Shown here piece by piece: positions 1 through 14,274 of a stretch of 64,000 bases of DNA (position 1 is the first letter of the stretch; each line of letters opens with the position of its first letter). The notes beneath the pieces are model-generated. The model had not been told where the DNA came from. It searched no databases and saw only the letters and a program-made list of their open reading frames with translations. The DNA lies in assembly GCF_020010925.1 (NCBI RefSeq), contig NZ_JAGJBZ010000001.1:2232001-2296000 (forward strand), read 5' to 3'. This DNA is from Streptomyces griseiscabiei (GTDB lineage Bacteria > Actinomycetota > Actinomycetes > Streptomycetales > Streptomycetaceae). A program made the translations under genes and the position numbers.

Positions 1-6
1 CATCAA

Positions 7-783
7 GTGGCGCGTGCCGTACTGAACTTCGAGGGACAGGTTCTGGGGCCGGAGCCGGGGCCGACGCACGTGCCGGTGCAAACGCCGAGCCCGGCCCAGG
101 CCCAGGCGCCGGTCGTCCCCGTCCGTGCCGGGCGGCATGTGTTACGGACGGCCTTCGCCCACGGGGACGTGCTCCTCACGCTCCACGTGGCGCCCATCGA
201 GCTGGTCACGGGCGTGGATGTGCTGGTCTCCTCGGAGAACATCTACTTCGAGATGTCGAAGACGTTCCGCCGCACCGTCTCCGGGAGCCTGCGGCGGGCC
301 GGCGCCACGAAGGACGCCGTCGGCCGCATCACGGACGACGTGATAGCGCGGCAACTCGCCGACTGGGTAAGGACGTTCGGGGTGCCGGGCCTGCCCGTGA
401 CGGCGGGCACGGTCGCCGTCACCTCACCGGGCGCCCTGTCGGCGCAGGGGGTGCGGCGCATCCTGCACGCGGCGGTCGCCACGCCCTCGGCCCGGGGCGA
501 CGGATACGAGACGGCGCCCGCGGCCGTCGCGGCGGCCGTGCGGCGCGTCTTCCAGCTGGCGGCGGCGGAACGGCGTACGGGCCGGGTCGCCCTGAAGTCC
601 ATCGCGCTTCCCCTGCTGGGTGCGGGCCGGGGCGGTCTCGACGCGCGGACCAGCGCCGAGACCGTCGTGGAAACGCTGGAGCAGGTGCTCAAGGCCGACC
701 CCGACTGGTCGGTGCATCTGGTGACCCGCAATCCGCTCAGCGCCCGCGCGGTGATCGATGTGGTGACCGACCGGCGCCCCTGA
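7..783 (+). CDS. Macro-domain-like protein
   Basis: The frame encodes 258 aa from a GTG at the window edge, so the true start may lie upstream. The first ~45 residues are a Pro/Ala-rich linker. After that the layout resembles the macro (ADP-ribose-binding) fold: a strand with DVLVSSENIY near residue 70, an Ala/Arg-rich helix, and IALPLLGAGRGGL near residue 200, which matches the glycine-rich loop and last strand of macro domains. Macro domains bind or hydrolyse ADP-ribose and its derivatives; here only the fold-level likeness is visible and catalytic residues cannot be assigned. It runs convergent to the RES toxin gene, with a strong hairpin between them. An NAD/ADP-ribose theme shared with that neighbour is inference. 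Confidence 0.7.
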   Translation: MARAVLNFEGQVLGPEPGPTHVPVQTPSPAQAQAPVVPVRAGRHVLRTAFAHGDVLLTLHVAPIELVTGVDVLVSSENIYFEMSKTFRRTVSGSLRRAGATKDAVGRITDDVIARQLADWVRTFGVPGLPVTAGTVAVTSPGALSAQGVRRILHAAVATPSARGDGYETAPAAVAAAVRRVFQLAAAERRTGRVALKSIALPLLGAGRGGLDARTSAETVVETLEQVLKADPDWSVHLVTRNPLSARAVIDVVTDRRP

Positions 784-1710: not shown

Positions 1711-2448
1711 TCAGTAGTCCTCCCCCACCACGCGCGCGGCGGCGAGCAGTTGATCGTCCAGCCCCGCGCCGAGCAGCGTCGCCGGCGCGGCGTCCAGCCA
1801 TGGATTGGGCCCCAGCCACCAGTCGGCCACACCCCAGGGGTCGGCCGCCGCGCCGAGCAGCGCGTTGACGGTGAGCACCACCGGACGCGGATGTCCGTCC
1901 GCGTCGAACTGGAAGGCGGGCAGCCGTGCCGGTCCCCCGGCGGCCGGGAGCCTGATCAGGTCGGGCTGGTCCGGCCGGCTCCCGAAGTGCTCCGCCAGCT
2001 CCCCGGCCGTCAGGGCGGGCTCGGCCAGCAGCCGGTCCCGGGCCGAGGCCCAGCGCGTCCCGGCCGTCCCCCCGCCCGTCTCCCCGCCCGTCCCACCAGC
2101 TCCGCCGTCGCCCGCGGAGGTCCGGGCGGCGGGCCGGGCGCCGGTCGGGCGGCCGTGGGTGCCGTCCGGCGTGAAGCGCTCCAGGAGCACCTCGTGCGGC
2201 GGTCGCCGCACGAGGGACGAGGAGGTGTAACGGCGGCCCACCGCCCTGCCCTCGTCACCCGGCAGGGCCACGCGCAGATGGGCGGCGACGGCACGCGTGA
2301 TCCCCCGCAGCCGCTCCTCGCTCCCGCCCTCGGCGACGAGGTCCAGCAGGACGTCGAGCTGTGCCCGGTCCTCCGGGGAGAGCTTTTCCCGGATCGACTG
2401 CGGTTCCGACACGAGCGCGGCGATTAGTTGCTGCTCGTACTCGTCCAT
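1711..2448 (-). CDS. Xre/MbcA/ParS-like antitoxin of the RES toxin
   Basis: This 245-aa protein has a C-terminal segment (NPWLDAAPATLLGAG, then a DDQLLAAAR helix) that resembles the toxin-binding domain of Xre/MbcA/ParS antitoxins. Before it, LTAGELAEHFGS and a PAFQF-type segment resemble the DNA-binding part of the actinobacterial version of these antitoxins. Residues ~95-135 are a Gly/Thr/Ala-rich linker. The start is an ATG behind a strong GAGGAGGGGA Shine-Dalgarno. It is the promoter-proximal gene, with the toxin 1 nt downstream, which is the order expected for an antitoxin. Autoregulation through its own promoter is likely but not demonstrated. Confidence 0.8.
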   Translation of the reverse strand: MDEYEQQLIAALVSEPQSIREKLSPEDRAQLDVLLDLVAEGGSEERLRGITRAVAAHLRVALPGDEGRAVGRRYTSSSLVRRPPHEVLLERFTPDGTHGRPTGARPAARTSAGDGGAGGTGGETGGGTAGTRWASARDRLLAEPALTAGELAEHFGSRPDQPDLIRLPAAGGPARLPAFQFDADGHPRPVVLTVNALLGAAADPWGVADWWLGPNPWLDAAPATLLGAGLDDQLLAAARVVGEDY

Positions 2449-2487
2449 TCGTTCCCCTCCTCGAATCCGGAATCCGGATGCGGAAGT

Positions 2488-2516
2488 ACGCTAGTGAGCT
2501 ACGATCCGATTGGCAA
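2488..2516 (-). promoter_or_regulatory. Promoter of the RES/antitoxin operon
   Basis: Reading the minus strand, TTGCCA (2516-2511) and TAGCGT (2493-2488) are separated by exactly 17 nt. This is a good match to the streptomycete housekeeping consensus TTGACA-N17/18-TAGRRT. It lies about 40 nt upstream of the antitoxin start codon. Confidence 0.55.
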
Positions 2517-2619
2517 TTCGCGAGCCGGGGGCGGGGGTTCATTCCCCCGAGGCGGACAGGGGGCTTTCGTGTACACGGATAATCAGGGTCCGGACGATCA
2601 CTCCGGGGAATCCGGCGGC

Positions 2620-5600
2620 ATGGATCGTTTTACCCGGATCGACACCGCCCTACGACTTCTCGAAGCGGCCGAGGAAGCCATGGAGCGGGACGAGCGGGAG
2701 CGGGTCGTGGAGCTCCTCGACGAACTGGAGCGGACCCTGGCGGGACTGCCCGGCTCCCCGGCCGGCGAGGGCGAACGGCGGCTGCTGCTCGGGATGTCGG
2801 CCGACGCGGCCCAGCTGCGCCACGCGCACGGACAGCGCCCCGAGGACCTCGACGACGCGATCGCCCGCCGGGACGCCGTCCACACCCTGACCGCCGAGGC
2901 GTACACCTCCCCGGGGCCCGAGGAGCCGCCCGAACTCGGTGAACTGATCCTGATCCGCTCCCAACTCGCCCTCGACATCGCCGAGCGCTGGCGCACGAGC
3001 GAGCCGGGGCCGCGCCGGTCCGCCGACGCCGACCGGGTCGCCGAGCTGCTCGGCCCGACCCTCGACGGCCCGGACGCGCAGCATCTGCCGGACCCCGCCC
3101 AGTGCCATCTGGTGCTCGGTCTGGTGCTCTCGAACCGCTGCCGCTGCGCCGAGCACGACACCCCCGAGCGGCTCGCGGACCGCGACGCCGCGATCCGGCA
3201 TCTGCGGACGGCGTACGACGCCGACGACCTCGACCCGGAGCTGCGCCCCGTGGTCGCCTTCGACCTCGCGCTGCTCTCCTACCTCCGACTGGCCGACCGG
3301 TACGACAGGTCGGAGCGCCCGCCCGGCGCCGGGGACGCCGCCTCGGAGTTCGGCGCGCTCCTCGACCTGCTGCGCCCGCTCACGGCCGACCCCGGTCAGG
3401 ACGGCGCCGACGCGGCCGAGCTGGGCGCGGACATGTGCGACGCGCTCACCCAGTACGACAGCGGTCAACGGGCCCAGGCCACCGCGATCGGCTGGTACCG
3501 GGCCGCCCTCGCCCACCCCGGGCTGCCCGCCGAGGCCGCCCATCGCGTCGCGACGAATCTGGGGCTGGCGCTGGCGGAACGCTCCGAACGCAACCGGGAG
3601 GCACAGCACCCCGGTGACCCCGCACCGGCCGTCGACCGCGCCGAGGCGGACGGCCTGTGGGAGGCGGCGCTCACCCGGCTGCCCGCCACGGCCGAGGCCG
3701 GGTCCGAGGAGCACGAGGGCAGGGTGGCGTGTCTGGCGGGCATCGTCGACCTGCTCTGGATCGAGCATACGGACGGGCTGCTGGACGAGGACGGCACCGG
3801 CAGGCTCGCCGCCCGCGCCCGTGAACTCGCCGCTCTCATCGGCCCGGACGACACCGACCGGGCGCTCCTCGTGCTCAAGGCCGCGATCGCCCTGAACCGG
3901 CGGGCGATCGACCGCGGCATGCCCTACATGTACGACATGACCAACAGCGTGCTGATGACCGGCACCGTCGATCCGGACCGGGCACTGGCCCGCACCGGAC
4001 CGCGTATGGTGGCCGATCTCCGGGACGCCATCGACCTGTTGCGCACGGCGAGCGGGCTCTACCACCACGAGGACGAACTTCATCTGGGAGCCCAGTGCAT
4101 CCTGGGCATCGCGCTGCTGCTGGACTTCGCCTGCGCCCTGCCCGAGGTCCGCCACGCCTCGCTCCGGGACGCCCTGCGGATCCTGCGGGTGGTCCTCGAA
4201 GGGCTGCCGGTCGACAGCGACCTGCGGGACGACGACCTCCACGGGGCCTTCCGCACCGCGATGCTGTACCGCGTCTGGTACACCGAGCCGTTCACCGCCG
4301 CCGCGCAGAACCCCGGTGAACCGCTCGTGCCGGATGTCACGGGGTTCCCCTCGGTCGAGGACGATCTGCAACTGCTCACGGGGCTGTTGGACCCCGACAC
4401 CCTCGACCGGGAACCGTATCTGGTCCTCATCTCCGTCATGGTGGGGCTGATCCGGTCACCCGAGGCGATGCCCTCGGCGGCGAACTGCCGTACATGGTCC
4501 GAGAGATTGCGGCGGGCCGTCCCCCGACTGGAGCCGGAGGCCTGGGGGCTGAAGGCGGTCATGCTGGCCATCGCCGGCACCCTGGGGCTCGTCCTCGACA
4601 GGACGGGCGAGGCCACCCTCACCGACCGGGCCACCACGACGGCGACCCTGCGGCAGGCCCGCGCCCTGCTCCCGCCGGGGTCCTCGATGCGCGGGATGAT
4701 CGACGACGCGCTGCGGCACGGCGCCATGACCGACCTCCAGGCACTGCTGCGCACCCTCTTCCCGGGCATGGGGCGGACGACGGCGCCCCCGCCCCCGGGA
4801 CGTCGGGCGGAGCAGCCCGCCCCGTCCGATCCGGCGGACGACGAGGGCGCGCCCACGCCGCCCGCCATCGACCCCTCCGCCACCGTGCTGCTCGGCGACG
4901 GTTCGCCCGATCCGTTCGCGCTCCCGCTGGGCAGGGTCGCCGAGATCCTGGACGGTGACCCGGGGACGGCGGGCCCGGCCGAGGCCGCCGCCCGCTCCCT
5001 CGCCCACTACCGGCGCTGGCTGCGGCAACGGGACGGCCAGGACCTGACCCGGGCCATCGCCCTCGTACGGCAGGCACTGACCGCCCTCGCCGACGGCACG
5101 GCACCGGACGGCGCACCGAGGGCGGGGGCCGCCGACCCGGCCCTCGCCGACCGGTGTGGAGAGTTCCTGGCCCATCTGCTCCTCGACCGGCATGTGCTGC
5201 TCGGGGACCACGCCGACCTCGACGCGGCCGTACACGAGTACGACCTGCTGCTCGACCGCACGCCGGAGCGGCTGACCCGGCCGCCGCTGCCCGCCGTGCT
5301 GGCGGAGGCGGGCGACCCACGGGTGCCGCCGCATCTCTTCCACGCCCCGGAGCGCACCGCGCACGCGCCCTTCCGCGCCGAGCTGTTGGCGGCCGCCGGG
5401 TCGGCGTGGCTGCTGCTCGCGCGCTCCCGTCGGCGCCACTCCTCGGCCCTGGCCGACAACGCCGTACGGGCCTGGGCGGAGGCCAAACGCCTGCTGCCCG
5501 AGGACCATCCCGCGGTCCCGGCCGTCCGGACCGAACTGGCCGCGCAGGCGCTGCGGACGGCCCGCGAGGCGGGTGACACCGAGGCCGTACGGGCGGCGGT

Positions 5601-7665
5601 AGACGCCCTCGTCGAAGCCGCGACGGCCTGCCCGCCCCGCAGCCCCCACCGCCCCGCGCTCCATCTGCGCGCTGCGGCGGCCCTGGCCGAGCCGGGCGCG
5701 GCGGCCGTGTCCGGCGGCGCCGCGGTCCTCGATCGGGGGGTCGCGCTGCTGCGGGACGTCGTGGAGCGGGGGCCGCACGAGTTCCACGGGTCGCGGGCGC
5801 GGTGTCTGTACGGGCTGGGGAGTCTGCTGCTGGCCCGGCATCCGGACACGGGACGGCGGGAGGATCTGGAGGAGGCCCTCGCGGTGCTGCGGGAGGCGCG
5901 GGAGGTGCTGAACGCGAGCGCGGGCGACCCCTTCGCCGTGGCGCTGATCCGGACGCTCGCCCTCGCCCATCGCGCGTTCGGCCCGCACGACGGCGAACAC
6001 CGGCGCGAGTCGCGGGAGGCGGGCCGGTCGGCGCTGACCGCCCACGGTCGTGCCGTCCTCCTCCAGTCGGGCGCCGACCACGGCCTCGAAGCCGCGCGGG
6101 CCATCGCACCCGACATGCTGCGGCTGGTCCGCTGGTGCCTCGCCGACGGACTGCCCGAGGCGGCCTTCGAGGCGCTCGAACTCGGCCGCGGACTCGTACT
6201 GAACGCCGCGACGACGAACGTCACCGTCCCCGATCTGCTCCGGGGCGACGGCCTGACCGCTCTCGCCGAGGAATGGGCCCGGGCCGCCGCCGACGGGCGC
6301 GGGGGCGGCCCGGGCGAGGTGCCGGACGACCTGCGGCGCCGGGTGCTGGACGCGCTGGCGGGCAGCGCCGCCGAGAAGCGCCTCGTCTCTGCGCCCGCGC
6401 CGGGTCTGCTCGGCCGCACCCTGCGCCGGCTGGGCACCGACGCGCTGGCCTACCTCGTCCCCGGCGAGGACGGCGCCCCCGGCCACGCGGTGATCGTCAC
6501 GGCGACCGGGGCGGTCCGCTCGCTGCGGCTGCCGCGGCTGACCTCGGTGTCCGCGGGGCCCGTCGGCGCGTACGACCGGGCGCTCGTGGAGTTCCAGGAG
6601 GCGGGCCGGCTGAAGGCGCCGGAACCGCACCACCCGCTGGTCATGCACGAGTTGCACCGGAAGCGGCTGCTGCTGCGGGAGAAGGAGTGGCGGCAGGCGC
6701 TCCAGCGGCTGTGCGTGTGGGCGGGCGAGGCCGCGATGACGCCGCTGCTGGCCGCCGCCGAGGCCTGGTGGCCGGGCCGTGTCCCCCGGATCGTCCTCGC
6801 TCCCGTGGGCTCCCTCGGCATCGTCCCCTGGCACGCGGCGGGCGGCCCGGGGTCCGCCGCCCCTTCGGCACCCGGGACGGGGTACGCGTGCGAGCGGGCC
6901 GTCATCTCGTACTGTGCCAGCGCCCGTCAGCTCATCGAGGTGGCCGCCCGGCCCGCGGCCGTCCTGGGCCGGGGCGGCGTGGCCGTCGTGGTGGACCCCG
7001 GCGGGTCGCCGACGATGCACCGTGAGGCGGCGCTCGTGACGGCCCTGCATCCGGAGGTCACCGTGATCGGCGGCCTGGGCGGGGCGGGGGACGCCCGTGG
7101 GGCGGGGGCGGTGACGCTGCCGTCCGAACCCGGGTCGCTGGAACCCTTCCTGCCGGGCCGCGGGGCGGCACCGACCGCGCTGCTGCACGTCAACTGCCAT
7201 GCGGACACCGGTCCGACGTCCAACGACTCCGTCCTCAGACTGGACGCCACGCACACGGTGTCGGTGCAGGACCTGCTGACCGGTGCGGCCGGCCGTGATC
7301 CCGGCATGCCCGGCGGTACGGTCCTGCTCGCCAACTGCACCAGCGATCTGACACTCAGCGACCACGACGAGGCGCTGACACTGGCGACGGCCTTCCTGGG
7401 AGTGGGGGCGACGGCGGTCGTCGGTTCCCGCTGGGCGGTCGCCGACGACCCCCGGACCACCCTGCTGGTGCTGCTCGTGCACCATCACATGAAGCGGGGC
7501 ACACCGCCCCGGGACGCCCTGCGCGCCGCCCAGTTGTGGATGCTGGACCCCGGCCGGGTCCTGCCGCCGGAGCTGGCGGAGTTCGAGGCGCTGGTCGGGG
7601 ACGGCACGAGCGGCCCGCTGGACGAGTTGGAGGTCTGGGCCTCCTTCGCCCACCACGGACAGTGA
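2620..7665 (+). CDS. CHAT-domain protease with long helical-repeat region
   Basis: The protein has 1681 aa from the ATG at 2620; an in-frame GTG at 2569 with AGGGGG just upstream is a real alternative. Most of the chain is Ala/Leu/Arg-rich helical repeats of TPR type, with a Pro-rich break near residues 725-750. The last ~350 residues form a CHAT (caspase HetF-associated) domain. HVNCHADTG carries the expected catalytic His (H1527) and VLLANCTSD the catalytic Cys (C1573), followed by AVVGSRWAV, the usual closing block. CHAT proteins are caspase-like cysteine peptidases used in bacterial cell-death and defence complexes, often with TPR regions as sensor or partner platforms. It is divergent from the RES/antitoxin operon and ends 9 nt from the last gene of the convergent AAA+ operon. 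Its substrate and trigger are unknown. Confidence 0.9.
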   Translation: MDRFTRIDTALRLLEAAEEAMERDERERVVELLDELERTLAGLPGSPAGEGERRLLLGMSADAAQLRHAHGQRPEDLDDAIARRDAVHTLTAEAYTSPGPEEPPELGELILIRSQLALDIAERWRTSEPGPRRSADADRVAELLGPTLDGPDAQHLPDPAQCHLVLGLVLSNRCRCAEHDTPERLADRDAAIRHLRTAYDADDLDPELRPVVAFDLALLSYLRLADRYDRSERPPGAGDAASEFGALLDLLRPLTADPGQDGADAAELGADMCDALTQYDSGQRAQATAIGWYRAALAHPGLPAEAAHRVATNLGLALAERSERNREAQHPGDPAPAVDRAEADGLWEAALTRLPATAEAGSEEHEGRVACLAGIVDLLWIEHTDGLLDEDGTGRLAARARELAALIGPDDTDRALLVLKAAIALNRRAIDRGMPYMYDMTNSVLMTGTVDPDRALARTGPRMVADLRDAIDLLRTASGLYHHEDELHLGAQCILGIALLLDFACALPEVRHASLRDALRILRVVLEGLPVDSDLRDDDLHGAFRTAMLYRVWYTEPFTAAAQNPGEPLVPDVTGFPSVEDDLQLLTGLLDPDTLDREPYLVLISVMVGLIRSPEAMPSAANCRTWSERLRRAVPRLEPEAWGLKAVMLAIAGTLGLVLDRTGEATLTDRATTTATLRQARALLPPGSSMRGMIDDALRHGAMTDLQALLRTLFPGMGRTTAPPPPGRRAEQPAPSDPADDEGAPTPPAIDPSATVLLGDGSPDPFALPLGRVAEILDGDPGTAGPAEAAARSLAHYRRWLRQRDGQDLTRAIALVRQALTALADGTAPDGAPRAGAADPALADRCGEFLAHLLLDRHVLLGDHADLDAAVHEYDLLLDRTPERLTRPPLPAVLAEAGDPRVPPHLFHAPERTAHAPFRAELLAAAGSAWLLLARSRRRHSSALADNAVRAWAEAKRLLPEDHPAVPAVRTELAAQALRTAREAGDTEAVRAAVDALVEAATACPPRSPHRPALHLRAAAALAEPGAAAVSGGAAVLDRGVALLRDVVERGPHEFHGSRARCLYGLGSLLLARHPDTGRREDLEEALAVLREAREVLNASAGDPFAVALIRTLALAHRAFGPHDGEHRRESREAGRSALTAHGRAVLLQSGADHGLEAARAIAPDMLRLVRWCLADGLPEAAFEALELGRGLVLNAATTNVTVPDLLRGDGLTALAEEWARAAADGRGGGPGEVPDDLRRRVLDALAGSAAEKRLVSAPAPGLLGRTLRRLGTDALAYLVPGEDGAPGHAVIVTATGAVRSLRLPRLTSVSAGPVGAYDRALVEFQEAGRLKAPEPHHPLVMHELHRKRLLLREKEWRQALQRLCVWAGEAAMTPLLAAAEAWWPGRVPRIVLAPVGSLGIVPWHAAGGPGSAAPSAPGTGYACERAVISYCASARQLIEVAARPAAVLGRGGVAVVVDPGGSPTMHREAALVTALHPEVTVIGGLGGAGDARGAGAVTLPSEPGSLEPFLPGRGAAPTALLHVNCHADTGPTSNDSVLRLDATHTVSVQDLLTGAAGRDPGMPGGTVLLANCTSDLTLSDHDEALTLATAFLGVGATAVVGSRWAVADDPRTTLLVLLVHHHMKRGTPPRDALRAAQLWMLDPGRVLPPELAEFEALVGDGTSGPLDELEVWASFAHHGQ

Positions 7666-7674
7666 GGCCGCGGT

Positions 7675-8262
7675 TCAGGGGGCGAGGTCGTCGACGCCCA
7701 GATCGCGGCGCATCACCTGCCGCATGTCGGCGAGGGACGTCCACGCCGCCCGGAGCTCCGGCTCGAACGCGTCCAGGGCCGGGCCGTCCACCGTCGTTCC
7801 GGCGAGGGCCTTCTTGAGAACGCCGTAGCCGTGGTTGAGCCGGCGGCTGACGGCGCCGGCGGAGACGAGCACAGTCGTCGGCACCACCATCTGGGCCTCG
7901 GCGTGGCACTCCCGGTGGGCGGTGCGGCGCTCCTCCAGCTGCTGCAGACAGGCATCGACGCCGGTGCCGTCCCTGAGCGCGTGCAACAGGCTGACCTGGG
8001 CGGTCTGGTACTGGCGGGCGGCGGTGTTGAGCGCGGTGCAGCAGGCGCGGCGGAGGTCGAGCAGCTGGCCGTGCCGGGCCTCCGACAGTTCGGCCCGGCG
8101 CACCCGCTCGGCGTGCTCGCGTTCCTCGCGCCGCTGCCGGTCCAGCGCGTCGAGTTCGAGTCGCTTGGCACGGTCGGCCCGGCTCTGGGTCAGCAGCGCG
8201 GCGCCCAGCGTGCCGACGACACCGACCGCGGCGACCGCCAGGGCCACCCAGGCGTCCCCCAT
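7675..8262 (-). CDS. Single-pass membrane coiled-coil protein, unknown
   Basis: This 195-aa protein begins with one hydrophobic segment (residues 5-26, AVAAVGVVGTLGAALL), followed by a highly charged Arg/Glu-rich stretch (residues 30-70) predicted to be coiled coil, then mixed helices. I recognise no family. It is the last gene of a six-gene minus-strand operon around an AAA+ ATPase and starts 34 nt after the ATPase gene. A role as membrane anchor or adaptor for that ATPase is conjecture from order and topology. Confidence 0.75.
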   Translation of the reverse strand: MGDAWVALAVAAVGVVGTLGAALLTQSRADRAKRLELDALDRQRREEREHAERVRRAELSEARHGQLLDLRRACCTALNTAARQYQTAQVSLLHALRDGTGVDACLQQLEERRTAHRECHAEAQMVVPTTVLVSAGAVSRRLNHGYGVLKKALAGTTVDGPALDAFEPELRAAWTSLADMRQVMRRDLGVDDLAP

Positions 8263-8296
8263 CGTCCCCCCTGGCTGCTCGGGCTGTTCGGGCTGT

Positions 8297-9865
8297 TCAG
8301 GTGTCGCCGAGGACCACGACCCTGCGGGGTGTGCCCGCGCCGGGGGTGGCGGTGGAGACGGCGGACCGGCCGGCGGGGACCGCGCGTTCGCGGCCCCAGG
8401 CGCGGATCTCCTCGATCTGTTCGGGGTTGCTGCGGCTGAGCGGGGCCGTGTTGGCGAAGGTGTCCTCGACGAACGAGGGGTCGAGCCGGTCGGCGCCGCC
8501 GCCGAGCAGGACCTCGGCGCCGACGTCGTGGAGCGCCGACTCGATGTCGGAGCCCGCGAAGCCCTCCGAGAGGTCCACTAGGCGGTCGAGCTGGTCCGGG
8601 TGGGGTTCGGCCTTGACGTAACGCCGGTAGTAGAGGGTGATGATCTCCCTGCGGTCCTGGTCGTCCGGCAGGTCCACGAAGAACAGTTCGTCGAAGCGTC
8701 CCTTGCGCAGCAGTTCGGGCGGCAGACTGCGGACGTCGTTTGCGGTGGCGACGACGAAGACACGGGAGTCGGACTCCTGGAGCCAGAACAGGAACTGGCC
8801 GATGATGCGCTGCTGCACGCCGGAGCTGTCGTGGGCGCCGGCGAGTCCCTTCTCGATCTCGTCGATCCACAGGATGCACGGGGCGACCCGGTCGGCGGCG
8901 TCCAGCGCCTCCCGCATCCGGCCCTCCGACTCGCCCAGATAGCGGCCGTGGATGCTGGCCATGTCCAGTCGGTACAGGGGCAGTTGCCACTGCTGGGCGA
9001 TGGCCTTCGCCGACAGGGACTTCCCGCAGCCGGGGACGCCGACGAGCAGGACACCGCGGGGCGGGCGCAGTTGGGTGCCGCGCAGGTCGGTGTGGATGAG
9101 ACGGTGCTTGCGCTCCAGCCAGCCGCGCAGGCTGGTGAGTCCGCCGACGGAGTAGTCGACGTCCTTGCGGGCGAGGCGTTCGAGACCGGCGAGATTGCTG
9201 AAGATGCGGTCCTTGGAACCGGCGAGGGTCAGGACGTCGGCGGCCTCCACCGAGCCCTTGGCGATGAGGGTGGCCAGGAGGTTCACCGCCTCGCCCTCGG
9301 TGACCCCCTGGAGGAACTCGGCGGCCCGGCGGGCGTCGTGCTCGGTCCAGGCGATGGAGACGACGCCCCGGTGGTCGCCGAGGAAGCCGCTGATGGTCGC
9401 ATACATCTCGTCGGCGTTCGGCAGGTCCAACTGCAGGCTCATGCCGAGGCGTTGCAGTCCGCTCCAGATGGGGTTGTCGGTGATGAGGACGACGCATCCG
9501 GCGTGGGTGTCGGCGATCCGGGCGAGTTCGGCGACGTTGCGGGTGAAGGGGGTGTCCGACTCCAGTTCCCCCGGGTCGACGAGGACGAGGGTGGCGTGCG
9601 GACGGGCACTGAACTGGGCGGCGGCGAAGTCCATGGCGCCGGTCAGCGAGCGGTCGTCGAGGACGGCCGCCCCCGACCGCAGATCGCGCAGGCCGGTGGC
9701 CCTGGTATGGATCCAGAACTGCTGGTTGGCGCGTCTCGGCTGGGTGGCGACCTCCTTCAGCATGCGCAGGGCGCGGGCCTGTTCGATGGTCCGCAGTCCG
9801 ACGACGGGCACCCGCGCGGTGAGGTAGTTGTCCAGGTCACGCTTGCTGTCGGCGTAGTTCGCCAT
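8297..9865 (-). CDS. Ycf46-like AAA+ ATPase
   Basis: This 522-aa protein is translated from ATG 9865 (MANYADSKRD). The N-terminal ~240 residues form a Ycf46-type domain. The AAA+ core follows: Walker A GVPGCGKS (276-283), Walker B ILWIDE (331-336), sensor-1 ATAND (373-377) and Arg residues at LLRKGR (385-390) suited to an arginine finger. The block GGLTSLRGWL ahead of the core is typical of the Ycf46 group. Such ATPases remodel proteins or nucleic-acid complexes, but targets for this branch are poorly known. It sits fifth of six genes and is the only energy-using enzyme of the operon, so the neighbours may be its adaptors or substrates. Confidence 0.88.
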   Translation of the reverse strand: MANYADSKRDLDNYLTARVPVVGLRTIEQARALRMLKEVATQPRRANQQFWIHTRATGLRDLRSGAAVLDDRSLTGAMDFAAAQFSARPHATLVLVDPGELESDTPFTRNVAELARIADTHAGCVVLITDNPIWSGLQRLGMSLQLDLPNADEMYATISGFLGDHRGVVSIAWTEHDARRAAEFLQGVTEGEAVNLLATLIAKGSVEAADVLTLAGSKDRIFSNLAGLERLARKDVDYSVGGLTSLRGWLERKHRLIHTDLRGTQLRPPRGVLLVGVPGCGKSLSAKAIAQQWQLPLYRLDMASIHGRYLGESEGRMREALDAADRVAPCILWIDEIEKGLAGAHDSSGVQQRIIGQFLFWLQESDSRVFVVATANDVRSLPPELLRKGRFDELFFVDLPDDQDRREIITLYYRRYVKAEPHPDQLDRLVDLSEGFAGSDIESALHDVGAEVLLGGGADRLDPSFVEDTFANTAPLSRSNPEQIEEIRAWGRERAVPAGRSAVSTATPGAGTPRRVVVLGDT

Positions 9866-9923
9866 GGTGGGCTCGCTCTTTCGTGATGCCGTCGGGCAGG
9901 GGTGACGTCGGTCGGGGGTGCCG

Positions 9924-10478
9924 TCAGTCGGGGGTGACGATGCGTCGTCTCCCGGTCGGCTCGTACCAGCCGGCGGGCGGCGGGGCGGAGGGCTCGGACA
10001 GCACGGCGGTGAGGGGGTTGTCGCGCAGGGTGCGGCGGCGGGCCTCGACGGCGTGCGGGTCCGCGCCGTCCGCGAGCAGGGACTGCACACCCCGTTCGAG
10101 GTCCTCCTGGAGCCGCCGTGTGTGCTCGTCCATGAGGCTCGCCATCCGGCGGCGGAAGTCGGCGGGCAGGCTGGTGTGGGTGATGACGGAGCGGACGGAG
10201 CGCAGTACGTCACGGCCGCGGGTGAGGGCACGTCCGACGGAGAACTCGTCGGAGGCGTCGTTCACCTCACGGACCATCACGTCGAGTCCGCTCTGCAGCC
10301 GCCGGTCGACGGCGGAGGCGATCCGGGTCAGCAGCCGCTGCCAGGTGTCGGCGGGCAGGTCGTCGGCGGCCAGCGGTGGCAGGTGGAGGGGGTCGGTGCG
10401 GTCGCCGTCGGCCCACCGGTCCAGGGTCCTGGCCCAGATCTGGTAGTCGCTCCCGCCTCCCCACCGGGCGCGGTTCAC
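9924..10478 (-). CDS. Helical hypothetical protein of the AAA+ operon
   Basis: The gene encodes 184 aa from a GTG whose GTGA overlaps the stop of the upstream gene by 4 nt. That overlap fixes the start, although the frame is open further upstream. The sequence is mostly charged helix with clusters such as RRRMASLMDEHTRRLQEDLE, and it has no transmembrane segment. I recognise no family. The tight overlap with the 114-aa gene and the ATPase gene 58 nt downstream suggest a stoichiometric partner of the ATPase. Confidence 0.75.
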   Translation of the reverse strand: MNRARWGGGSDYQIWARTLDRWADGDRTDPLHLPPLAADDLPADTWQRLLTRIASAVDRRLQSGLDVMVREVNDASDEFSVGRALTRGRDVLRSVRSVITHTSLPADFRRRMASLMDEHTRRLQEDLERGVQSLLADGADPHAVEARRRTLRDNPLTAVLSEPSAPPPAGWYEPTGRRRIVTPD

Positions 10479-10819
10479 AGGTCCCTCGACGGGCGGCGCA
10501 CGAGCTGTTCGCCGGGCGGCAGGGGGTCCCAGGCGGGCAGGTCGGTGACGGTCCGCCGCAGCCGCCGGGTGACGGGATCGGGCGCGGGCGGCCCCGGCGC
10601 CGGTGACGTGGCCGAGGCCCAGGGAGCGGGTTCGGACGGCGGCGCCGGCGCCGGAGGCGGCGGTACGGGCCCGGGGGCGGCATCGGCGTCCCGCTGGTCG
10701 GGCACGGCCGGGGCCCGGGTGGGCCGGGGCGGCGCCGCGAAGGGCCGCAGATGTTCCGGGATCTCGGGCCTCAGCCACGGGGGCGTGGAGTCCGGCGAGA
10801 AGGGGAGGTCGTCGCTCAT
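10475..10819 (-). CDS. Short proline-rich hypothetical protein
   Basis: This 114-aa protein is Pro/Ala-rich and probably largely disordered: about a third of residues 25-80 are proline. It has short conserved-looking ends (MSDDLPFSPDSTPPW; VTDLPAWDPLPPGEQL). No fold or family is recognised. It overlaps the next gene by 4 nt and lies 30 nt after the stop of the 594-aa gene. The low-complexity composition makes the call less certain, but the ATG start, the overlap and the continuous codon bias favour a real gene. Confidence 0.65.
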   Translation of the reverse strand: MSDDLPFSPDSTPPWLRPEIPEHLRPFAAPPRPTRAPAVPDQRDADAAPGPVPPPPAPAPPSEPAPWASATSPAPGPPAPDPVTRRLRRTVTDLPAWDPLPPGEQLVRRPSRDL

Positions 10820-10849
10820 GATGGGTTCCTCTCGGCGGTCCCGGTCGGC

Positions 10850-12634
10850 TCAGTCGCCGGCGCCCACGACGCGGCCCTCGAAGGTGGCGGGCGCGTGGGC
10901 GGCGGTGTTCAGGGACGCGATGAAGTTGCGGGCCTCGGCCTCCACGAAGTCGGCCGCCCAGTAACGCTGTTGCCAGTCGGTGAGTTCGGCGTGGGCGCCC
11001 CTGAGCCGGCCGAGGGCGTCCTGCATGTGCCGGCCGAGCAGTTCACGGGCCTGTTCCTGTGCGGTGCGCCCGGCCTCGGTGCGGTTGTGGAGGACGATGC
11101 CCCAGATGCCTCCGACGGCGATCGCCGCGAGCACGGCGAACCCGACGTGGACCCCGAGGAAGACGATCAGGATCGCGGCGACGGCGGCGCCGAGGAGGGC
11201 GAGCTGATTGGTGTAGTTGTAGGCCAGCGACTTGATGTACATCTCCACATAGGCGGTCCAGTGCCGGGTCAGTGACGCCTCCAGCTCCGGCAGATCGTCG
11301 GTGAGCGGCTTGGTCCAGGTGGTGAGCTTGAAGCGCTGGGTGCCGTGGCCGACGCCGTAGGTGTTGCGCAGGGAGATCTCGATCTTGGGGGGCATGGCGG
11401 CCCGGTAGTCGCGGCTGAACCCGGCGTGCGCCTGCGCGAACCATTCCTGGCACGAGGCGACGGCCAGTCGCTGCGCGGCGGGCGAGGCGCCCACGGCCGT
11501 GGGGTCGAGGGCCGCGACCGACTGCACGCTCAGGTAGTTGCGGGTCTCGTCCAGCGCCTCGGACCGCATGTCCGCCTCCTGCCGCGCGGCCTCCTCGTCG
11601 CCCTCGTGGCGCACGATGGCCTCGTTCAGCAACAGCTTCCGCTGGAGGGGGAGTTCCTCCTCGTCCGAGTTGCTGACCAGGGCGTCGAGGATGTCGTCGA
11701 CCGTGTCCTCCAGGTTGGGCGCCGGGAGGATCTCGCTCTCCATGAGGGAACGGAAGCGGCTCAGCAGCGCCTCGTGCGCGCGGGCGCGGGCGAGGAGGTC
11801 GTCGAGCACCGGCCACTGGGGGCAGACGGCGGCCAGCCTCGGGAAGTCGTCCTCGGCCGACGGGGCCTTCATGGAGTCGATCTCCTGCCGCCAGCGTCCC
11901 ACCTGGGCCGCGCGCACGGCCTCGTCGTCCAGCAGCCGCCGACGCCATTCGTCCAGGGTGCGGCTGAGCAACTGACGCCCCTCGGGGCCGAAGGCGCCCT
12001 GGGCGACACACTCCAGGACGACCTGGATCTCCCGGCCGAGGACCCGGGGGTCCTGTCCCTCCAGATAGTGCCGCAGCCAGCGTACGGAGGCCTCCTGCCG
12101 GCCCTGGCGGCGGAGGGTCAGCGCGAAGAACAGGGACGTCTTCGACGTCGAGCGTCTGAACGCCTCCTCCACCGCCCGCGCGCACAGCTCCTCGTCGTCG
12201 CCCGCCCACGCCGCCAGGCCGACCAGGGCGGGTGCCAGCCAGTAACGCGACGTCTGCAGCATCAGCTCTTCGCTGAGCTGCCGGACCGTCTTCTCCTGGG
12301 CGAGCCCGGCGTCGAAGGTCTGGAGGATGCCGATCGCGGTCCGGCGGACCACCTTGTGATGCCCGTACTTGTGCTCGATCTCGTCGTTGATCCCGACGAT
12401 CCGCGTCTCCGCGCGCTGGGCGGCGGCGATGCGTTCGGTTCTGCCGACGTGTTCCAGGAATTTCTCGTAGAGCACTTCCAGCCGGTCCCGGGTCTTCGCC
12501 GACACGGCTCTGACCTCCCGGACCTCACCGTCCACCTGCTCGATCTGGCCGCCGAGCGAGCGGACGGAGTTCTTCAGCTGGCGTTCGAGGTTGTCGATGC
12601 TGTGGAGGATGGGGTTGAGGTTGATCTCGCTCAC
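10850..12634 (-). CDS. Large coiled-coil/membrane protein of the AAA+ operon
   Basis: This protein has 594 aa from GTG 12634, chosen for the ACGGAGACC Shine-Dalgarno and because the longer frame runs into the upstream gene. Residues ~8-60 form a coiled coil (IDNLERQLKNSVRSLGGQIE). The middle is helical and TPR-like, with repeated Arg/Glu helices. Near the C-terminus are one or two hydrophobic segments (LALLGAAVAAILIVFLGVHV; FAVLAAIAVGGIWGIVL), followed by a charged tail. The architecture is a cytosolic sensor or scaffold anchored to the membrane. No family name can be assigned from sequence reading. It is the second gene of the operon. Confidence 0.8.
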   Translation of the reverse strand: MSEINLNPILHSIDNLERQLKNSVRSLGGQIEQVDGEVREVRAVSAKTRDRLEVLYEKFLEHVGRTERIAAAQRAETRIVGINDEIEHKYGHHKVVRRTAIGILQTFDAGLAQEKTVRQLSEELMLQTSRYWLAPALVGLAAWAGDDEELCARAVEEAFRRSTSKTSLFFALTLRRQGRQEASVRWLRHYLEGQDPRVLGREIQVVLECVAQGAFGPEGRQLLSRTLDEWRRRLLDDEAVRAAQVGRWRQEIDSMKAPSAEDDFPRLAAVCPQWPVLDDLLARARAHEALLSRFRSLMESEILPAPNLEDTVDDILDALVSNSDEEELPLQRKLLLNEAIVRHEGDEEAARQEADMRSEALDETRNYLSVQSVAALDPTAVGASPAAQRLAVASCQEWFAQAHAGFSRDYRAAMPPKIEISLRNTYGVGHGTQRFKLTTWTKPLTDDLPELEASLTRHWTAYVEMYIKSLAYNYTNQLALLGAAVAAILIVFLGVHVGFAVLAAIAVGGIWGIVLHNRTEAGRTAQEQARELLGRHMQDALGRLRGAHAELTDWQQRYWAADFVEAEARNFIASLNTAAHAPATFEGRVVGAGD

Positions 12635-12713
12635 GCGGGTCTCCGTTCCGGGCCGTTCCGTGCCATGCCGTGCCGTGCCGTTCTCGTGGAGCGCGGTCCG
12701 CCGGTCCGCCGGC

Positions 12714-13181
12714 TCAGGGCCTGACGACACCGCCGTCGGGCAGCACGGGCAGGACCAGCCCGTCCGTGTACACCTCGACGAACGCGTACGCGCCCGAGCG
12801 GGCCAGCATGCGGGCGGCGTCGAAGGGCGGGGGCATCACGTCGTGGGCCGCGCAGTGGCCCAGAATGCGTCCGTCGAGGCCGAGCCGGTGGTCCACGTAG
12901 GGGGAGCCGAGCAGACACGGCGCGACGTATCCCACGGGGACGGGCGCGCCGCGGCCGACGTACTCCTCACGGAGCCAGGCGGCGATGTCCTGGACCGCGG
13001 CGTCGTCGACGGCGGCGTCCAACCGGCGCACCCGGCCGAGGAGTTCCGGTGTCCGGGTGGCGAACAACTCCCGGGTGGCGGCGGGTCCGGTCGCCGGGGG
13101 CGCGGCGACGCGCGGGGCGTGCGGCCCGACGGAGGTGCCCGGTGGCACGACGATGCGGCGCGGCCGCTCAACGGATCCCAT
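12714..13181 (-). CDS. First gene of the AAA+ operon, unknown
   Basis: This 155-aa protein starts at ATG 13181, behind a strong AGGGGGG Shine-Dalgarno 5 nt away; the longer open frame upstream crosses the promoter region and is not used. The N-terminal ~40 residues are Pro/Ala-rich. The rest is a compact domain ending in a hydrophobic strand-rich segment (AYAFVEVYTDGLVLPVLPDG). No family is recognised. As the leading gene it may be the regulatory or recognition component, but nothing in the sequence proves that. Confidence 0.75.
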   Translation of the reverse strand: MGSVERPRRIVVPPGTSVGPHAPRVAAPPATGPAATRELFATRTPELLGRVRRLDAAVDDAAVQDIAAWLREEYVGRGAPVPVGYVAPCLLGSPYVDHRLGLDGRILGHCAAHDVMPPPFDAARMLARSGAYAFVEVYTDGLVLPVLPDGGVVRP

Positions 13182-13587
13182 GAGTCCCCCCTGCTGAACA
13201 TGGCCCGACATGCGTCTCGTCGGTGACGCGCGGTATCCGAAGGGTATTGACGCCCCATCAACAGCGCCTAAGTTGAGCGATATCAATCGACAATGACCGT
13301 TTACTACCCGGATAAGTACCGGATAACAACCGGACGCCGCCCCGGCAAGGAGAGCGGTCAGGCGAGCGATCAGGCGAGCGGTCATTCCGGCTGCCGTGCC
13401 GGCGATCACTCAGTCGGCGCACTCCACACGACTGAGGAATTCATCAATGGTGATCCTGGCCGGTGCCGGTCGGAGGCATGGGCCGCCGCCGCGCGGGAAG
13501 GCGGCTGTCGTTGCCGCCTCCGTACGGGGCTCGCGTGCGAGGCTGGATACGAGGACTGTCGGGACGAGGGTGGAGCGGAGGACGGGT
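13182..13587. promoter_or_regulatory. Divergent intergenic region (AAA+ operon / GAF-ANTAR)
   Basis: These 406 nt separate two divergent starts and hold no convincing gene. On the minus strand, TTGTCG and TAGGCG lie 17 nt apart (about 13292 to 13264), a plausible promoter for the AAA+ operon. Near-direct repeats TACCCGGATAAG and TACCGGATAAC (13305-13327) could be an activator or repressor site. A 12-bp tandem repeat lies at 13352-13387. Confidence 0.4.
13352..13387. repeat. 12-bp tandem repeat, three copies
   Basis: The unit GAGCGGTCAGGC at 13352-13363 is followed by GAGCGATCAGGC and GAGCGGTCATTC. It lies between the divergent AAA+ operon and the GAF-ANTAR gene. It could be an operator array or a replication-slippage product. 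Confidence 0.6.
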
Positions 13588-14274
13588 GTGGACTGGGACC
13601 GGTTCGCACAGCAGATGGCGTCGATGGCGCGGGATCTGCTGGCGCAGCCCTCCGTGGCCGCCACTCTGGAGCGGATCACCGCCTCGGCCATCGAGCTGGT
13701 GGAGGGCTGTGACGCGGCGGGCATCCTGGTGCTGCACGGCTCGTCGGTGGAGACACTGGCCCCCACCGACCAGCTGGTGATCGACAGCGACGCACTGCAG
13801 GAACGGCTTCGCGAAGGGCCCTGCTTCGACGCCGCCCGCAGCTCCGAGGGCGACCGGGTCTTCCGCATCCCCGACTTCTCCGGCGAGGAACCGCGCTGGC
13901 CCGCCTACGCCCCCCGGGCCCGCCGCCTCGGGGTGGGCAGCATGATGGGTTTCCTGCTCTTCACCGAGGACGAGGATCTCGGCGCCCTGAACCTCTACTC
14001 CCGTCGGCCGGGCGCGTTCACCGAGGTCAGCGAGACGGCGGGCTGGCTGCTGGCCTCCCACGCGGCGGTCGCCTTCGCCAGCGCCCGCACCCACGCCCAG
14101 CTGGAGCGGGCCGTCGCCACCCGCCACGTCATCGGCGAGGCCATGGGCATCCTCATGGGCGCCCACCGCCTCACCGAGGAGGAGGCCTTCGACGTGCTGC
14201 GCCGCTTCTCGCAGGAGAAGAACATCAAGCTCCGCGACGTCGCCCGCCGGGTCTGCGAACAGGGCGGCCTCTGA
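13588..14274 (+). CDS. GAF-ANTAR transcription antitermination regulator
   Basis: This 228-aa protein starts at a GTG with GGAGG 6 nt upstream; the frame is open earlier, but this is the best ribosome site. Residues ~15-150 form a GAF sensor domain, and residues ~165-225 an ANTAR RNA-binding domain (RHVIGEAMGILMGAHRLT, then a three-helix pattern). ANTAR proteins bind paired RNA hexaloops and prevent termination, with the GAF domain sensing a small ligand or redox state. No target hairpins were identified here. It is a monocistronic gene, divergent from the AAA+ operon, with no evident partner kinase. The stop codon overlaps a 13-bp tandem array. Confidence 0.9.
   Translation: MDWDRFAQQMASMARDLLAQPSVAATLERITASAIELVEGCDAAGILVLHGSSVETLAPTDQLVIDSDALQERLREGPCFDAARSSEGDRVFRIPDFSGEEPRWPAYAPRARRLGVGSMMGFLLFTEDEDLGALNLYSRRPGAFTEVSETAGWLLASHAAVAFASARTHAQLERAVATRHVIGEAMGILMGAHRLTEEEAFDVLRRFSQEKNIKLRDVARRVCEQGGL

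Follow-up and report, generated by a model that had tools for sequence, protein, structure and literature searches.

The window analyzed here, a 64,000-nucleotide stretch of the 10.6-Mb genome of Streptomyces griseiscabiei (contig NZ_JAGJBZ010000001.1, positions 2,232,001 to 2,296,000), carries on its minus strand a row of genes, designated A to F, of which E encodes an AAA+ ATPase and A to E recur together in other bacteria. All six genes of a preliminary description of this DNA are present. From A to F they are separated by 79, 30, −4, 58, and 34 bases, the negative value being a 4-base overlap between C and D, and a convergent gene for a CHAT protease ends 9 bases from F, followed by a RES gene pair and a gene for a Macro-like protein. 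The features of the row are as follows (lengths in amino acids [aa]).

12714-13181, minus strand: A, 155 aa; flexible N terminus, then a small alpha/beta domain; no family
13149-13160, minus strand: terminal tag RRIV at the N terminus of A; read from the window sequence, in relatives found by regular expression
10850-12634, minus strand: B, 594 aa, GTG start; predicted membrane scaffold; no family above cut-off
11075-11215, minus strand: predicted membrane hairpin of B, residues ~474-520; hydrophobic sequence and two helices in the structure model
10475-10819, minus strand: C, 114 aa, Pro-rich, probably disordered
10493-10540, minus strand: conserved C-terminal motif of C, LPAWDPLPPGEQLVRR; recurs between B and D elsewhere
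9924-10478, minus strand: D, 184-aa helical protein, GTG start; no family
9936-9947, minus strand: terminal tag RRIV at the C terminus of D; read from the window sequence, in relatives found by regular expression
8297-9865, minus strand: E, 522-aa Ycf46-type AAA+ ATPase; PF00004
8315-8326, minus strand: terminal tag RRVV at the C terminus of E, with R514 nearly invariant; in relatives found by regular expression
7675-8262, minus strand: F, 195 aa; one N-terminal membrane helix and a coiled coil; accessory

Nine proteins of the window were compared with Pfam, NCBIfam, and PADLOC, and A to E were additionally searched against PHROGs. E was the only one of A to F to exceed a family cut-off in the first three databases (PF00004, 2.5e-31); A, B, C, and D reached no family in any of the four, and F gave at most weak matches below cut-off in Pfam, NCBIfam, and PADLOC. 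The suggestion that the companions of the ATPase belong to no known family was thus borne out by these scans. In PHROGs, nine families matched E, the first being phrog_8638, whose function is unknown. The Walker A and B, sensor, and arginine residues of E are intact and invariant across 40 sequences, in agreement with its initial description as a Ycf46-like ATPase with all motifs preserved; the name Ycf46 serves as a general label, given independently of a curated model. Alignments of E with AAA ATPases from Geminocystis and Pseudanabaena plasmids cover 97% of the protein, including the N-terminal half, at 32 to 34% identity, and when E of Streptococcus oralis was used as a query, 45 phage records, among them satellite phage Javan368, aligned over at least 80%.

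Among relatives of A, residues R43, D55, C89, G92, H98, H109, Y132, E136, and G150 are invariant, and its structure model has a predicted local distance difference test score of 87. B is laid out as an N-terminal helix of ~100 residues, TPR-like helices at residues 91 to 216, the hairpin, and a long C-terminal helix. Two members of the row had been said to carry membrane segments, and these were identified as B, in which sequence and model agree on a two-helix hairpin, and F, whose single N-terminal helix was read from the sequence. Of 86 other loci, 78 have the tail motif of C in the interval from B to D, one of them as an off-frame match.

Distribution and mobile carriers of the five-gene cassette

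One scan of species genomes returned 213 relatives of B, from which 80 loci were retained, and a scan of viral contigs added one. The 89 loci analyzed, the window included, were selected by B, which is therefore present in all of them by construction. Some places bear two names (L011/L051, L028/L111, L029/L130, L083/L117, L089/L113, L010/L112, L013/L105, and L014/L106), and only L011/L051 enters the count of 89 twice. In profile searches, 87 of the 89 loci had A, 85 had D, 82 had E, and 4 had F, and the losses of A, D, and E sit at contig ends in all loci except L077, whose B is full length and is followed by genes of 686 and 1175 aa. Because A, D, and E recur in fixed order across the 89 loci, the open reading frames are not chance ones. 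The six genes had been proposed to act as one unit; this held for A to E, which co-occur in fixed order, whereas F proved accessory, and as it is present in so few loci and has a paralogue elsewhere in its own genome, the conserved unit comprises the five genes A to E. Scattering of the genes in other genomes, which had been named beforehand as speaking against a system, was not found for A to E.

Copies of the cassette were identified in at least six phyla (Actinomycetota, Bacillota, Pseudomonadota, Fusobacteriota, Bacteroidota, and Acidobacteriota), so that four protein families lacking any model in the four databases travel with a Cdc48-class ATPase across this range and on mobile elements. 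The order A-B-C-D-E is found in actinobacteria (with the exception of one Bifidobacterium), Pseudomonadota, Bacteroidota, and Acidobacteriota, and the order B-C-D-E-A in Bacillota, Fusobacterium, the viral contig, and the one Bifidobacterium. Using tblastn with B, the same gene row was located on plasmids of Comamonas and Komagataeibacter, on a chromosome-sized Fusobacterium record, and in Javan368. The tree of E mainly tracks phyla, with one Bifidobacterium copy nested within Bacillota and the satellite copy grouped with those of S. oralis.

The cassette is sporadic and mobile. Of 246 genomes of the genus, 10 (its own included) have a close relative of B, as do 1 of 249 genomes of Pseudomonadota and 2 of 249 of Bacillota, the centre genome of each draw being counted. 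The Streptococcus satellite phage Javan368 has the cassette as its terminal block, at the other end from the integrase; in Komagataeibacter it lies on a 26-kb plasmid that also encodes a tyrosine recombinase; and on viral contig L104 two genes for DNA-invertase-type integrases follow it within ~4 kb downstream. Carriage by satellites and plasmids would also be expected if A to E served the carrier element itself, in plasmid or satellite maintenance or in interference with a helper phage, rather than host immunity. This explanation is improbable, as the Streptomyces copies adjoin a conserved effector module and several of them sit on chromosome-sized contigs.

More distant relatives of B (E values of 1e-45 to 1e-70) were found at 13 places in 12 of the 246 genus genomes, one of which also has a close B. 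At the five of these loci that were fetched (L105 to L109, from genomes G163, G191, G310, G396, and G350) A, D, and E were undetected, and the distant relatives were consequently not counted as cassettes. A gene resembling those of Ser/Thr kinases, judged by eye, adjoins the distant B in two of the five.

A shared terminal tag and the predicted complex

The short tag at the ends of A, D, and E was counted in the loci other than the window using the expression R[RK][IV] followed by one hydrophobic or H, Y, or Q residue. Among C-terminal ends, it was present in 64 of 76 for E and 32 of 70 for D, compared with 2 of 599 for other neighbors; among N-terminal ends, 34 of 86 A proteins had it, compared with 18 of 599 other neighbors. 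B mostly lacks it (7 of 84 C termini, 5 of 84 N termini), and it was absent from the caspases (0/23) and from the open reading frames of the CHAT cluster (0/39, some of these being antisense artefacts). C terminates in the related V-R-R. In four outgroup Ycf46-type ATPases the expression found no tag, and A, B, and D were absent within 4 kb of them. The occurrence of one short linear motif on several different proteins of the same operon (L024 to L104) is unusual in itself.

From conserved gene order and the tag, the A to E proteins very probably form one complex. The simplest reading of the tag is that A, C, D, and E may bind a single partner through their flexible ends, with B as that partner: B would be a membrane scaffold on which the other four are held by the R-R-(I/V) tag. 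The tag would thereby offer a direct handle on the system, as it predicts which proteins bind one partner.

Neighboring genes and the proposed effector module

Adjacent to the cassette, the window contains the following genes.

2428-7665, plus strand: CHAT protease with a long N-terminal region and an uncertain start codon; PF12770, 3.2e-24; effector module
1711-2448, minus strand: RES partner protein, 245 aa
1026-1742, minus strand: RES-domain toxin candidate; PF08808, 2.9e-17
1-783, plus strand: Macro-like protein, truncated by the window start; Macro-like neighbor family, 3.6e-76

The CHAT domain scores 86 bits against a cut-off of 24, and HVNCH and LANC, read from its sequence, presumably hold the His/Cys dyad. 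The RES domain scores 63.6 bits against a cut-off of 23.2; other RES toxins degrade nicotinamide adenine dinucleotide (NAD). In Pfam, the RES partner gave no match to an Xre-type antitoxin and a weak one to the PafC helix-turn-helix domain (0.024). The window genes scanned include no caspase, and both caspase matches of the genome lie ~1.7 Mb from the window.

Linkage was scored in the 27 Streptomyces loci with enough flanking sequence, CHAT being sought within 10 kb. CHAT was found in 27 of them, a caspase in 21, the Macro-like family in 16, and RES in 13. As the first CHAT cluster contained antisense open reading frames, the search was repeated with a model built from three Pfam-confirmed domains, and all 27 loci were again positive. 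Pfam confirmed every caspase (21/21) and every RES domain (13/13), while the similarity of the Macro-like family to Pfam Macro is weak (at 0.01, 6 of 17 members match, the best at 3.6e-6, the window member being among the 17). Given this linkage, and with five CHAT matches in the whole 10.6 Mb of the window's own genome, the presence of CHAT and RES beside A to E, which had been suggested as a feature to seek elsewhere, is not a coincidence. Of the 10 B-bearing genomes of the genus, 7 have RES no more than 12 kb from B; in one the region is split over contigs, and in two there is none nearby. RES was identified in 36 of the 246 genus genomes and so also occurs without B.

Distances between the CHAT proteins correlate with those between the E proteins (Mantel r = 0.81, 26 loci), as do those between the caspases (0.91, 20 loci), a correlation that could also be obtained from shared descent alone. 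The nearest relatives of the window cassette belong to the Streptomyces scabiei group (B identity, 83 to 87%), and in this group, as in the window, CHAT lies on the opposite side of the cassette and no caspase was found beside it. The scabiei-type CHAT is ~30% identical to the other CHAT proteins, although the accompanying E shares 82% identity with E of L027 (Streptomyces panaciradicis). Since CHAT has diverged and the gene order has changed while E remains close, the link has outlived replacement or rearrangement, with the set of domains kept.

The same genes also occur without the cassette. In eight loci taken from B-less genomes with the most similar RES, and not at random (L122 to L129), all eight carry the Macro-like gene, the RES partner, RES, CHAT, and caspase, and A, B, D, and E are absent over 18 kb. 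Hence there are two modules, often side by side, and the inclusion of CHAT, RES, Macro, and caspase in the core was rejected because this separable module stands alone. In Streptomyces the Macro-like, RES partner, RES, CHAT, and caspase genes apparently constitute an NAD/protease conflict cassette of their own.

Outside Streptomyces, 45 of the 50 loci lack both CHAT and caspase. A firm CHAT was confined to three (L046, L069, and L070, from two Pseudonocardia and one Allorhizocola); the first search had produced five matches, of which that in L071 is weak (3e-7) and that in L055 was lost with the clean model. Caspase was found in two of the 50. As this five-gene form has neither CHAT nor caspase, its effector lies within A to E or is a host protein, and A, with its invariant Cys, His, His, and Glu, is the best candidate for that part.

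The independence of the two modules bears on an alternative in which A to E would be an envelope or protein-quality stress machine, with Ycf46/Cdc48-like remodeling, that is merely accessory, and the protease and RES genes an unrelated defense module in the same island. The standalone effector module and the 45 loci without CHAT or caspase both suit it, as does one Ycf46-type relative that sits with Hsp70, GrpE, and DUF1257 genes. Sporadic presence and carriage by a satellite and a small plasmid, however, fit cargo better than housekeeping, and the CHAT link in all 27 Streptomyces loci argues against unrelatedness, so that we regard a stress machine as unlikely.

An ATPase resembling EccC of the type VII secretion system (T7SS) neighbors the cassette in 9 of the 50 non-Streptomyces loci, all actinobacterial, and carries the tag at its N terminus in eight of the nine. 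In several it lies directly upstream, with a membrane protein of 174 to 185 aa between it and A, and an 86-aa helical protein is encoded downstream in seven, on the same strand in four. In L052, L053, L058, and L068, the EccC-like ATPase and A to E are followed by a row of small helical proteins (86, ~100 to 115, and more aa), and a protein of 177 to 192 aa precedes A in three of these four, giving an unusual type VII-like look. This arrangement raises the alternative that A to E are an accessory of secretion or translocation, which with the EccC-like ATPase and small helical proteins would make up a type VII-like export machine, lone cassettes being reduced forms. The scores of the ATPase, 98 (L053) and 108 (L060) bits in the two of nine scanned, are nevertheless far below the curated T7SS cut-off of 509 bits, EccC is not among the window genes scanned, and the EccC-like family was undetected in the Streptomyces, Bacillota, Pseudomonadota, and satellite loci; an export role is thus doubtful.

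Among further neighbors, KwaA and KwaB of the Kiwa system adjoin the Filimonas cassette (L088), and partial matches to mad3 (L101) and HEC-07 (L085) were found near two other cassettes. The PADLOC and Pfam tallies of non-Streptomyces neighbors cover 132 of 142 listed proteins, out of 288 eligible, and represent the top 25 families only.

Proposed function and comparison with known systems

The reading preferred here is that A to E encode an AAA+ complex anchored in the membrane and belonging to a conflict system that is sporadic and mobile, and most likely directed against phages or other mobile DNA; from distribution and gene content, we consider the chances of this to be evenly balanced. In this scheme, B would act as the receptor, and upon a trigger E would spend ATP on remodeling or releasing a partner, the remodeling being the switch. 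In Streptomyces, where the cassette is joined to the separate effector module (CHAT, usually caspase, the RES toxin with its predicted NAD degradation, and the Macro-like protein), release would lead to proteolysis and loss of NAD and so stop the infected cell. An immune or anti-mobile-element role for A to E is likewise a matter of even chances, and we infer it, as we do the trigger and NAD degradation by this RES protein, from sequence and neighborhood.

Several observations weigh against this reading. L077 carries B alone on a long stretch, without A, C, D, and E. The 27 of 27 Streptomyces loci with CHAT are not 27 events, because these loci share ancestry, and the Macro-RES-CHAT-caspase module exists without A to E, just as most cassettes outside Streptomyces exist without CHAT and caspase. 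Few known defense genes were found among the neighbors (raw counts, without a background rate). The strict tag is present in under half of D tails and A heads, C has only V-R-R, and two of the four outgroup ATPases have tag-like final letters. Fold comparison of the A and B models gave nothing informative.

Extending the conflict-system reading, A to E could be pictured as a plug-in immune machine, with a tag-docked AAA+ core that is fitted with the caspase/CHAT/RES/Macro death module in Streptomyces or with the tagged EccC-like translocase in other actinobacteria, and that travels alone on plasmids and satellites. We put this forward tentatively. Should A to E indeed confer immunity, they would represent a new class powered by an AAA+ ATPase. 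Its five-gene form would be portable, and its Streptomyces form, in which caspase-type proteases and a RES toxin are coupled to the cassette, would connect it with how regulated cell death originated.

Known systems share single features with the cassette. The Ycf46-type ATPases of cyanobacterial plasmids and phages resemble E in full-length alignment, but the four relatives examined have Hsp70, DUF1257, DUF2997, or unrelated genes as neighbors and not A, B, or D, and DUF2997 and DUF1257 partners are absent among the nine window proteins in Pfam. In one of them (L134, a Pseudanabaena plasmid), GrpE, Hsp70, DUF1257, an ATP-binding protein, DUF2997, and the Ycf46-type ATPase lie in a row; this is a distinct chaperone-like system that contains the same ATPase type. 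The AAA domain of E matches the PADLOC model of IetA, from the IetAS system, at 1e-24; E nevertheless scores 71 of 510 bits, far below the NCBIfam IteA cut-off, and none of the nine window proteins is a subtilisin-type IetS partner, CHAT being the only protease that Pfam, NCBIfam, and PADLOC identified among them. In Craspase (type III-E CRISPR Cas7-11 with TPR-CHAT), a CHAT protease is similarly tied to a sensing machine, and the window CHAT weakly matches Csx29 (27.5 of 300 bits). Here, however, the partner is an AAA+ cassette, and the nine window proteins gave no other CRISPR-type match.

The EACC1 and MoxR-vWA conflict systems of multicellular bacteria (Kaur et al. 2020, 2021; PMC7159879, PMC8195603) resemble the genes described here in their NTPase core or in outputs linked to proteases. 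No MoxR, vWA, STAND, or EACC1 match above cut-off was obtained for the nine window proteins in Pfam and NCBIfam, and the caspase of L027 matches the EACC1-associated caspase model weakly (52 of 140 bits). As far as the main text of Kaur et al. 2020 was accessible, it mentions neither Ycf46 nor RES nor CHAT. In the titles and abstracts of the open-access literature, the domain covered here as opposed to subscription papers and preprints, no description of the A to E cassette was found; an unnamed mention is possible in the supplementary tables of PMC7159879, PMC8195603, and PMC13092281 (DefensePredictor). The gene system A to E is new in that it falls outside the known systems tested, and this novelty concerns the gene system, not the mechanism.

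On the other side of the cassette, divergent from A, the window encodes at 13396-14274 on the plus strand a 292-aa protein that by eye resembles GAF-ANTAR regulators.

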